A stretch of 64,000 nucleotides of DNA. Source: Halorubrum hochsteinianum (GTDB taxonomy: Archaea > Halobacteriota > Halobacteria > Halobacteriales > Haloferacaceae). The stretch covers positions 1,550,001 to 1,614,000 of the forward strand of contig NZ_CP098415.1 in assembly GCF_023702125.1 (NCBI RefSeq), read 5' to 3'. Below are positions 7,440-31,450 of this stretch, one piece after another. Positions within the stretch are counted from its first letter, which is position 1, and every line of letters starts with the position of its first letter. The notes below the pieces were generated by a model that was not told the origin of the DNA, did no database searches, and saw only the letters and a program-made list of their open reading frames with translations. The position numbers were made by a program, and so were the translations under genes.

Positions 7440-8920
7440 CGCTCGGGCTCTCGCTCGGCGTCGTCGTCGGCTACCTCGTCGTCGCGCTCGCGCTCGGCCT
7501 GATCGCGTACCGCGTCTCGGAGACGACCGCCGAGGACTACTACCTCGCGAGCCGGTCGATCGGGACGCTCGTGCTGCTTTTCACGACGTTCGCCACCCTG
7601 CTGTCGGCGTTCACCTTCTTCGGCGGCCCGAACCTCGCGTACGCCGCCGGGCCGGAGTGGCTGGTCGTGATGGGGACGCTAGACGGCGTCCTGTTCGCCG
7701 TGCTGTGGTACGTCATCGGCTACAAGCAGTGGCTGATCGGCTCCCGCAACGGCTACGTGACGCTGGGCGAGATGCTCGGCGACCGGTTCGGCTCCACCGG
7801 GCTGCGCGCGTTGGTCGCGGGCGTGAGCCTCCTGTGGCTGTTCCCGTACGTGATGCTCCAGCAGATGGGGGCCGGCGAGGCGCTCGTGGGGCTCACAGAC
7901 GGCGTCGTCCCCTACTGGGGCGGCGCGGCGCTCATCACGGCGTTCATGATCCTCTACGTCACCGTCGCGGGGCTCCGCGGCGTGGCGTGGACGGACACGC
8001 TTCAGGGACTGTTCATGCTCTCTATCGTCTGGGTCGCCGCGGCGTGGGTCCTCTCCGCGGTCGGCGGCGTCGGGGCCGCGACCGGCGCAATGTTAGAGGC
8101 CCGCCCCGAGTTCGGGAGCTTCGGCGGCGGGACGTACACCCCCGGGTTCATCATTTCGACGGCGATCACCATCGCGTTCGGGGTGACGATGTTCCCGCAG
8201 ATCAACCAGCGATTCTTCGTCGCGAAGTCGGCCGCGACGCTGAAGCGGTCGTTCGCGCTGTGGCCCGTGCTGGTCCTCCTCCTCTTCCTCCCCGCGTTCA
8301 TGCTCGGCGCGTGGGCGGCCGGGATGCCGATCGAGGTCCCCGAGGGCGCGAACGTGCTGCCGGTCGTGCTGAACGAGTACGCGCCGGCGTGGTTCGCCGC
8401 CCTGGTGATCGCGGGCGCGATGGCCGCGATGATGTCCTCGTCGGACTCGATGCTGTTGTCGGGGTCGTCGTACTTCACCCGCGACCTCTACCGCCCGCTC
8501 GTCGACGCGGACGCCTCCGAGCGGCGCGAGGCGTGGATCGCGCGGATCGGCGTGGCGGCGTTCGCGACGCTGGCGTTCGTCGCGAGCCTGTTCCGCCCGG
8601 GGACGCTGATCGAGGTCGGCGACACCGCCTTCTCCGGGTTCGCGCTGCTCGCGCTCCCCGTGATCTGCGCGCTCTACTGGCCGCGGACGACGCGCACGGG
8701 GATGGTCGCCGGGATCGCGGTCCCGCAGGCGGCGTACCTGCTCGTGGTGTTGTCGTCGGTCCTGCCGCTCGTCCCGACGCTGCCGCGGACCGTCTTCGGC
8801 GGGTGGGACGTCGCGCTCGGACTGATGGTGTTGTCCGGCGCGCTGACGGTGGGCGTCTCGCTCGTGACTGCGCCGACCGCCGACGGCGACGCCTCGCGGT
8901 TCGCGGTGGTAAGCGATTAG
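7436..8920 (+). CDS. sodium:solute symporter family protein
   Basis: A 494-residue protein with about 13 hydrophobic helices. Family signatures of the SSS transporters include TTAEDYYLASRSIGTL at the end of helix 1, the ATLLSAFTFFGGP stretch and the AAMMSSSDSMLLSGSSYF sodium-site helix in the second half. It would import an organic solute with Na+, consistent with a salt-adapted cell. The substrate cannot be read from sequence. The preceding DUF3311 gene suggests a two-component organic-acid type symporter. It is translated in overlap with that gene. Confidence 0.9.
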   Translation: MTLGLSLGVVVGYLVVALALGLIAYRVSETTAEDYYLASRSIGTLVLLFTTFATLLSAFTFFGGPNLAYAAGPEWLVVMGTLDGVLFAVLWYVIGYKQWLIGSRNGYVTLGEMLGDRFGSTGLRALVAGVSLLWLFPYVMLQQMGAGEALVGLTDGVVPYWGGAALITAFMILYVTVAGLRGVAWTDTLQGLFMLSIVWVAAAWVLSAVGGVGAATGAMLEARPEFGSFGGGTYTPGFIISTAITIAFGVTMFPQINQRFFVAKSAATLKRSFALWPVLVLLLFLPAFMLGAWAAGMPIEVPEGANVLPVVLNEYAPAWFAALVIAGAMAAMMSSSDSMLLSGSSYFTRDLYRPLVDADASERREAWIARIGVAAFATLAFVASLFRPGTLIEVGDTAFSGFALLALPVICALYWPRTTRTGMVAGIAVPQAAYLLVVLSSVLPLVPTLPRTVFGGWDVALGLMVLSGALTVGVSLVTAPTADGDASRFAVVSD

Positions 8921-9013
8921 CTGAAGCCAGGTCCTGACCGGCGCGCTGCCGAGTCGCGGTTGGCGTCTCGTGGTCGACGGAGCGGTAGCGACCACATTCG
9001 AATCCCCGGCCGG

Positions 9014-9330
9014 TTGTTTATGAATAGCTGAGTTCAAATCGGCGGTGAACACCTCCAAAGCCCCAGTCGCGAGGAGCCCGTACGCTCGCTGCGCTCCTCG
9101 CTCAGTCACTACGTTCCCTCGCTGTGGTGCTTGACGTCGCCTACGGGCTCCTCGCGACTGCCCCTTTGAGTCCCACCCCACCCCGCACCGCACCCCACCC
9201 CGCACCGCACAGCACCGCGCCTCACGCCTCCCCCAGCCTCGCCGCTCACGCCCTGCGGGCGTTCGCGGCGTCCCTCGCACGCGCTCCTCGCGGCCGCCCT
9301 CGGCGGCCGCTCGAAGGCGCGCGCCACCGA
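9014..9330 (+). repeat. dispersed intergenic repeat, copy 1
   Basis: The core at 9057-9330 (about 274 bp) matches a 272-bp core at 31179-31450 in the same orientation. Shared blocks come in the same order: GCCCCAGTCGCGA, TCGCTGCGCTCCTCGCTC, TCGCGACTGCCCCTT, GCGCCTCACGCCTCC, GTCCCTCGCACGCGCTCCTC and GCGCGCCACCG. Upstream, a TATA-like TTTATGAAT (9017-9025) lies about 27 nt before a GTG (9045) that opens a 29-codon frame ending at 9134. The frame starts in register with the longer frame in copy 2. It could be a mobile-element remnant, a structured RNA gene or a regulatory repeat; no transposase is present. Confidence 0.75.
9064..9160. repeat. 19-bp perfect inverted repeat inside repeat copy 1
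   Basis: CAGTCGCGAGGAGCCCGTA at 9064-9082 is the exact reverse complement of 9142-9160, with a 59-nt loop. A transcript from the upstream TATA box would fold into a long stem. In copy 2 only the outer 9 bp (CAGTCGCGA/TCGCGACTG) remain perfectly paired, so the outer stem is the conserved part. Confidence 0.7.
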
Positions 9331-9419
9331 AACGGTCAGGTGGAAATAACGCCGCGGAACCGGTCCCACCGCGTCGGACTCGCCGAAAGCCAAAAGCCGA
9401 TCTGTCCCCGACGATAGGT

Positions 9420-10292
9420 ATGAACGAGCCCGGTACCGAGGGCGTGCTGCTGGATCAGGAGACGCTCCGCGGTCGGCTCGACGACGCTCCCGAGTGGCTC
9501 CGAGAGCACTACCGCACCTTCCGGGAGTCGATGCTCGGCGAGCGCGACGGGTCGCCGTTCCCCTGCTACTTCGGCATCGAGGTCGAGCGCGAGGGGGACC
9601 TCCTGTACGCCGCCTGCGAGTCGACGACGGACCCCGCCGCCCTCCTGCGGCTGCGGGACGTCCTCCTCGAATACCTCGACACCTACGAGGACCACGCCGA
9701 CCGCGCGCCGCTCGCGGTGTTCTTCCGGCCGCCCGCGGGCGACCGCGGCGAGGCGCACTACCACGAGCGGCTCTGGCACGTCCTGGAGTTCCTCCACGTC
9801 CACGACCCCGAGCCGTGGCCCGACGACATCCCGACGGACCCGGACACCCCGCGCTGGGAGTTCTGCTTCGGCGGCGAGCCGCTGTTCCCGACCTCTCGCG
9901 CCCCGTTCTACGACGACCGGAAGAGCCGGTACTCGCCGGTCGGACTGGAGATCACCTTCCAGCCGCGGGCGGTCTTCGAGGGGCTCACGGCCGACACGGA
10001 GGCGGGCGAGCGCGCCCGCGAGACCATCCGCGACCGCATGGGCGAGTACGACGGCGTCTGCCCCCACGCCGACCTCGGCGACTGGGGAGCCGAGGGCGAC
10101 CGCGAGTGGAAGCAGTACCTGTTCCGCGAGGACGACGACGCCGGCCCGGACGCGTGCCCGCTGTCGCCGACCCGCGACCACCCGAAGGCCCCCGAGCCCC
10201 TGCTCGAACCCGGCGCGTGGCGGCGGTTCGCGAGCGACGCCGACGCGGGCGACCGCGACGCCTCCCCCACCGCGGGGCTCGGCGATGACTGA
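9420..10292 (+). CDS. YqcI/YcgG family protein
   Basis: A 290-residue soluble protein that fits the YqcI/YcgG family. Recognisable stretches are [18 protein letters not shown] near residues 46-63, [14 protein letters not shown], and [20 protein letters not shown] with Cys/His/Asp residues typical of the family. The last 40 residues are acidic and probably disordered. The biochemical role of this family is not firmly known. Its stop region overlaps the start of the isochorismatase-like gene by 8 nt, so the two are probably co-translated. Confidence 0.75.
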
Positions 10293-31129: not shown

Positions 31130-31450
31130 GCTGTACGTACTGGGTTTCGTCGGGAGTACCTCCGTGACCGAGAACGCCGAAGCCCCAGTCGCGACGGCTC
31201 GCGCGCCTCGCTGCGCTCCTCGCTCGTTTGCTTCCGCTCACTCGCTGCGGTGCTTGCTGCGGCGAGCTTCACCCTCGCGACTGCCCCTTCGAGTCCCGCC
31301 CCGCAACAGCACCACCCCGCGCCTCACGCCTCCCCAGCCTCGCCGCTCGTTTGCGGGCTCCCTCCGGTCGCCCGCGGCACTCGCGGCGTCCCTCGCACGC
31401 GCTCCTCGCGGCCGCCGGTGGCGGCCGGGCGGCGGCGCGCGCCACCGCAG
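31130..31450 (+). repeat. dispersed intergenic repeat, copy 2
   Basis: The core at 31179-31450 matches copy 1 at 9057-9330 block by block in the same orientation and at nearly equal length. A GTG at 31164 opens a frame that enters the core in the same register as copy 1 (APVA is encoded in both) but stays open for about 200 codons. The TATA-like element is weaker (GTACGTAC, about 31133-31140). The copy ends 20 bp from the glmM stop. With 31067-31129 it fills the 404-bp space between genes; I see nothing else there. Confidence 0.75.

Follow-up and report, generated by a model that had tools for sequence, protein, structure and literature searches.

BOX elements follow a modular A-Bn-C plan. 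REP repeats are extragenic and lie mostly between co-directional and convergent genes (PMC3733652), and G-T pairing in their stems has been cited as a sign of transcription in the REP/RAYT papers (PMC3733652, PMC3116915, PMC2817692). Haloquadratum walsbyi carries PATEs and SMR, transposase-free palindromic repeats present in tens to more than 100 copies, with one kind of repeat inserted in the palindromes of another (PMC3119063). The ends of PATEs are related to IS605-type transposons, while SMR-A is about 110 bp long, has terminal inverted repeats and is more than 95% identical between copies (PMC3119063). Rickettsia palindromic elements insert inside genes and are translated (PMC10969869).

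Like REP/BIME, the repeat described here from a 64,000-nucleotide stretch of Halorubrum hochsteinianum DNA (the window) is extragenic, hairpin-forming, present in high copy number and found in co-directional and convergent gaps (PMC3733652). However, it is 235–300 bp long with three hairpins, whereas REP is one palindrome of 20–40 bp; its stems are hypervariable, swapped and almost without G-T pairs; and, unlike in REP/RAYT systems, a Y1 transposase is missing from its own genome. With PATE and SMR it shares a haloarchaeal host, palindromic structure, many copies and other hairpins nested within it, and with PATE also near-terminal palindromes without recognised terminal inverted repeats. It differs from PATE in being longer, divergent and genus-wide, the IS605-related ends being a PATE feature that sets the two apart by description, and from SMR-A in its median core length of 246 bp (own copies) and in nearest own copies that are about 85–88% identical. 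By description it can also be likened to the BOX elements of Streptococcus pneumoniae (discussed in PMC10969869), which are modular and intergenic, with a variable number of modules and stable folds; its repeated module, however, is specific to each locus and lies at the 5′ edge, and it belongs to a different domain of life. The Rickettsia elements are likewise palindromic and related to the reading frames of host genes, but none of 101 copies of the Halorubrum repeat lies in coding sequence, and its frame is tied to the stop codon of the upstream gene. Searches of the open-access literature for this repeat and for haloarchaeal palindromic repeats gave no description of it.

The initial annotation had noted that the core of the element at 9014–9330 recurs about 22 kb away on the same strand. 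This recurrence is real: the 271-bp core (9055–9325, + strand) has a 267-bp counterpart at 31177–31443 (+) with about 74% identity. The count of two copies was nevertheless far too low. The 317-bp query (9014–9330) matched its own genome at no fewer than 40 loci with E < 1e-28 (40 of 324 first-look candidates being scored), and the 23-base linker CACCTCACGCCTCCCCAGCCTCG, with up to three mismatches allowed, occurs at 122 sites in this 3.06-Mb genome (58 on the + and 64 on the − strand), compared with none for the same linker reversed.

In an alignment of 32 copies, the core is made up of three hairpins rich in G+C and three conserved linkers rich in pyrimidines (CTGCCCCTTYGAGTCCC, ACCGCACCTCACGCCTCCCCAGCCTCG and CTCCCTCGC), bounded by CCRAAGCCCCAG on the 5′ side and GGCRCGCGCC-ACCGC on the 3′ side (Table 1). 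Hairpin 1 starts 9 nt inside the 5′ edge, and hairpin 3 extends right up to the 3′ edge; the edge sequences, CCRAAGCCCCAG and GGCRCGCGCCACCGC, do not form an inverted repeat. Beyond the 3′ edge ACCGC the copies diverge into unique, A+T-richer sequence. The C/A-rich stretch that follows linker 1 is variable across copies and is expanded in the copy at 9055–9325, whose linker 2 also has one extra C.

Table 1. Features of the repeat and of its second copy in the window
Feature	Position	Strand	Basis
Degenerate 57-nt 5′ unit (GAATCCCCGGCC...TTTATGAATAG...GGTGAACACCTCC), holding the TATA-like box and GTG	9000–9056	+	Alignment with 5′ units from elsewhere in the family, tandem at some loci
Element core, three hairpins and linkers	9055–9325	+	Alignment; conserved edges CCRAAGCCCCAG and GGCRCGCGCC
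Hairpin 1; outer arms 9064–9082 and 9142–9160, perfect 19 bp	9064–9160	+	Fold; covariation in helices 1–5
Linker 1 (CCCCTTTGAGTCCC, partial pairing with 5′ edge) and variable C/A-rich stretch	9161–9219	+	Alignment
Linker 2, CCTCACGCCTCCCCCAGCCTCG, stretch with the highest conservation	9220–9241	+	Alignment; linker searches
Hairpin 2, hypervariable stem, complementarity mostly kept	9240–9270	+	Fold; pair counts; orthologues
Linker 3, TCCCTCGC	9271–9278	+	Alignment
Hairpin 3, end GGCGCGCGCC	9277–9325	+	Fold; covariation in helices 6 and 7
3′ edge ACCGA (family consensus ACCGC)	9326–9330	+	Position counts, 93 copies
Second full core	31177–31443	+	5′ unit directly upstream

Genes in the stretches around the copies were called from codon usage, with 19 ORFs of the window as the training set. 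Relative to these genes, all 101 own copies placed are intergenic, with no overlap with a called gene. Their neighbours are oriented > > in 34 cases, > < in 29, < < in 21 and < > in 15. Convergent neighbours outnumber divergent ones (29 vs 15, p 0.049), and the upstream (left) neighbour is directed at the element in 63 of 99 cases (p 0.009). The repeat is thus extragenic and of high copy number and prefers gene 3′ ends, as in a REP-like way of life. On its own chromosome (G000:C1), copies are sparse at about 1.75–2.0 Mb and beyond about 2.25 Mb, with 2–4 per 250 kb compared with 7–14 elsewhere.

Far from two copies with none in relatives, the case that the initial annotation had set against its own proposal, the repeat has about 122 copies at home and is present in all 47 same-genus genomes, at 14–194 copies each. 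These counts, made in a class sample of haloarchaeal genomes with up to two mismatches in the linker, gave almost zero in the reversed control. Other genera are patchy: one genome of g60, in the same family, has 98 copies, g27, in another family, has 0–57, with 57 in one genome, and the linker was not found at this threshold in most other haloarchaea of the sample. Most named GTDB records with the linker belong to Halorubrum; Haloparvum sedimenti and Halorussus are also represented. In the copies examined from Halorussus and Haloparvum, linker 2, hairpin 2, linker 3 and hairpin 3 are present in different surroundings. The Halorubrum hairpin 1 does not accompany this 3′ half, which runs from linker 2 through hairpin 3, in L180, L186 and L194 (Halorussus) and L142 (Haloparvum), and L180 additionally has a CCTCCCCAACCGCTTGCGGTCCTC repeat carrying a related motif. 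Viral contigs and phage records gave no match and only four plasmid records matched, so an element of viruses or plasmids was rejected.

On both strands of the element, folding is better than in shuffles (z −5.1 and −4.5). In the 32-copy alignment, 95.2% of stem cells are paired and 27 of the 47 stem pairs show double changes. Cells changed on both sides number 156; shuffles give 41.9 ± 5.9, and slid controls no more than 21. One-sided changes account for only 9 cells in the summed per-pair table. The outer stems of 352 distinct hairpins from many species are Watson-Crick in 2976 of 3172 cells, with 30 G-T, 74 A-C and 92 other cells, and are thus largely Watson-Crick although own copies are no more than about 88% identical. 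Forty-two of the 74 A-C cells belong to two stem positions, the remaining A-C and G-T cells are without strand bias, and in hairpin 2 wobble is nearly absent on either strand. Because A-C mismatches exceed G-T pairs 74 to 30, the + strand is disfavoured as a folded RNA; it is also unlike one in that haloarchaeal tRNA acceptor stems in the same data give 6 G-T and no A-C in 189 cells, compared with 30 and 74 in the element. Covarying base pairs are expected of DNA hairpins as well as of structured RNA. We favour folding at the DNA level over folding as RNA, while the − strand could still act as a folded RNA.

On balance, the element is probably one copy of an old non-coding DNA repeat that is dispersed between the genes of Halorubrum, has a REP/BIME- or MITE-like way of life and is maintained by its fold. 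The even split of about 122 copies over the two strands, the exclusively intergenic position, the covariation (156 vs 9) and the exchange of hairpins as cassettes argue for this reading, whereas the lack of target-site duplications and clean empty sites, of near-identical young own copies and of a Y1 transposase argues against it, as does the excess of A-C over G-T at two stem positions, which is expected of a folded − strand RNA. The repeat may have spread early in the genus as a non-autonomous element, by transposition. It would now be maintained through the ability of the DNA to form hairpins, either as cruciforms or on the single-stranded lagging-strand template. Complementarity could be restored by hairpin-templated repair together with conversion between copies, and might be selected if the structures act as boundaries behind genes, which would give the repeat a role for its host. 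The initial annotation thus stands as far as it proposed a dispersed, structured, MITE-like intergenic family, but not in its tiny protein or its own promoter. If this is correct, every Halorubrum genome examined holds tens to nearly 200 large folding elements that are undescribed in the literature searched, and the 47 counted genomes and the shared loci form a natural series on hairpin upkeep by stepwise compensation, self-templated repair or whole-hairpin swapping.

It is possible, although unlikely, that the − strand, or else the 3′ untranslated part of adjacent transcripts, folds as RNA into three hairpins with purine-rich single strands and works as a non-coding RNA or an mRNA 3′-end element. 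The strong covariation of the stems, the folding of both strands and the preference for gene 3′ ends are all consistent with this, as are the 74 A-C to 30 G-T cells, which mean more wobble on the − strand, and the series T-A (L082), C-A (L084) and C-G (L077) at one stem pair across orthologues. The wobble excess, however, comes mostly from two positions, with hairpin 2 nearly wobble-free on both strands; no conserved promoter lies on either side (TATA-like in about 22%); and the orientation to flanking genes is inconsistent (34/29/21/15). In Rfam there was no match at the gathering threshold, the only matches being at chance level (E 0.3–0.5), and a known RNA family was rejected. Hence, of the structured RNA family that had been proposed from the sequence, the covarying stems are borne out, but a relative in Rfam is lacking and the + strand is disfavoured.

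A further reading, which we regard as doubtful, is a non-autonomous transposable element of the MITE, PATE or SMR kind, mobilised now or recently by a transposase and without host function. The repeat is dispersed and non-coding, its copy number is patchy between genera, other hairpin elements are nested in its loops, and comparable haloarchaeal elements exist in Haloquadratum (PMC3119063). Its history in the genus speaks against recent mobilisation. Relatives have the element at three loci, namely locus 1 (the 9-kb window copy), locus 2 (the 31-kb copy) and the L012 locus. At loci 1 and 2 it is present in part of 30 relatives each, the others having deletions, other genes or remnants, and at the L012 locus the element or its 5′ units lie directly behind a conserved stop codon in 14 of 16 relatives and are absent in two (L313 and L322). 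Neither a clean empty site nor a target-site duplication was found at the three loci compared with relatives; the element-free sites (L070, L108, L313 and L322) resemble deletions or unrelated sequence. Terminal inverted repeats were not recognised either. Among own copies, identity to the nearest neighbour is at most about 88%, so there has been no recent burst in this genome, and young copies are absent. The transposase search, which covered the Y1_Tnp family (PF01797), gave no match in the own genome but did detect the family in 5 of the 14 genomes used as controls, Haloferax volcanii among them; a REP system driven by a Y1 transposase in the own genome was accordingly rejected.

Exchange of whole hairpins is seen among orthologues. 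In L077, L082 and L084, hairpin 1 differs by 0–2 nt, while hairpin 2 or 3 is replaced whole, with breakpoints at the linker edges. In several species, small paired hairpins are inserted in the element's loops or linkers, namely in L073, L076, L100, L106, L110, L118, L315, L319 and L323 and in the own L027, L030 and L282; examples are GAGAATC-GAA-GATTCTC and GAGAGAGC-TTC-GCTCTCTC, and their stems vary between copies. They apparently represent a second family of variable-stem hairpin elements.

Many cores are preceded by units that reiterate the 5′ edge (CCRAAGCCCCAGYCGCTCG...). The units of one locus are identical to each other but differ from those of other loci; the highest copy number seen was 6.3 copies of a 63-nt unit at L022 (431–828). 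Locus-specific tandem arrays of 51–69-nt units occur at L022, L031, L017, L012, L016, L036 and L007. In 49 of 52 own copies and 86 of 95 other copies, the spacing of the units is divisible by 3. There are six length types (51, 54, 57, 63, 66 and 69), a count that overstates independence because the types share ancestry; the stop-codon phase of unrelated genes is free of this problem. Gene ends were taken from a simple codon-usage caller. At 34 of the 52 own loci where a co-directional gene lies upstream, the stop codon of that gene is in phase with the 5′ edge (p 2e-6), as it is at 64 of 106 loci in other genomes, orthologues included. At 30 of 53 own loci, no further stop interrupts the gene's frame between its stop codon and the core; the two other frames are free of stops at 13 and 15 loci, and the figure for shuffles is about 16. 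Stop usage at element loci (TGA 22, TAA 16, TAG 15) has more TAA and TAG than that of window genes (65, 6 and 20, respectively).

This frame relation is a specific puzzle. Open frames and lengths in multiples of 3 first suggested coding repeats fused to genes. This was rejected, since substitution rates in the units are equal at the three codon positions and codon scores are negative in all frames; moreover, no amino-acid conservation was found in the units, and the single, doubtful case of gene fusion (L263) is in another frame. The relation could have arisen if the element inserted at a stop codon or immediately behind it and the array then grew in phase; low-level translation past the stop could also explain it. 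It is quite improbable that the element is part of a translation-linked 3′-end device at dozens of unrelated genes, in which read-through of the stop at some rate, in the upstream gene's frame, would keep multiples of 3 nt and an open frame up to the hairpins, where the folded structure would meet ribosomes.

The TATA-like TTTATGAATAG (about 9017–9027), the GTG at 9045–9047 and the 29-codon frame ending in TGA that the initial annotation had pointed out are present in the sequence, the box of the 9055–9325 copy sitting in its degenerate 5′ repeat unit. A promoter of its own is nevertheless no feature of the family. Of 87 copies, 20 have a TATA-like string in the 45 nt before the core, and the 45 nt after it contain one just as frequently (20 of 93), compared with 0–3 in control windows. 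The A+T-rich surroundings are real, but only about a quarter of copies have a counterpart of the box. That the family encodes leaderless tiny proteins with the GTG as start codon is scarcely credible and was rejected as a family feature: the box and GTG of the 9014–9330 copy are spaced as in leaderless genes, but a GTG is at that site in just 4 of 87 copies, the length of hairpin 1 is not kept modulo 3 (classes 45/25/15), and the 5′ units are without codon-like substitutions or a codon-position signal.

The element may influence gene ends, assembly and annotation, the last because its frames could be called small proteins. At the intergenic site of window 8920–9420, the orthologues (L078, L080, L081, L083, L086 and L091) have different small genes in different species, so genes are frequently gained and lost at this site.
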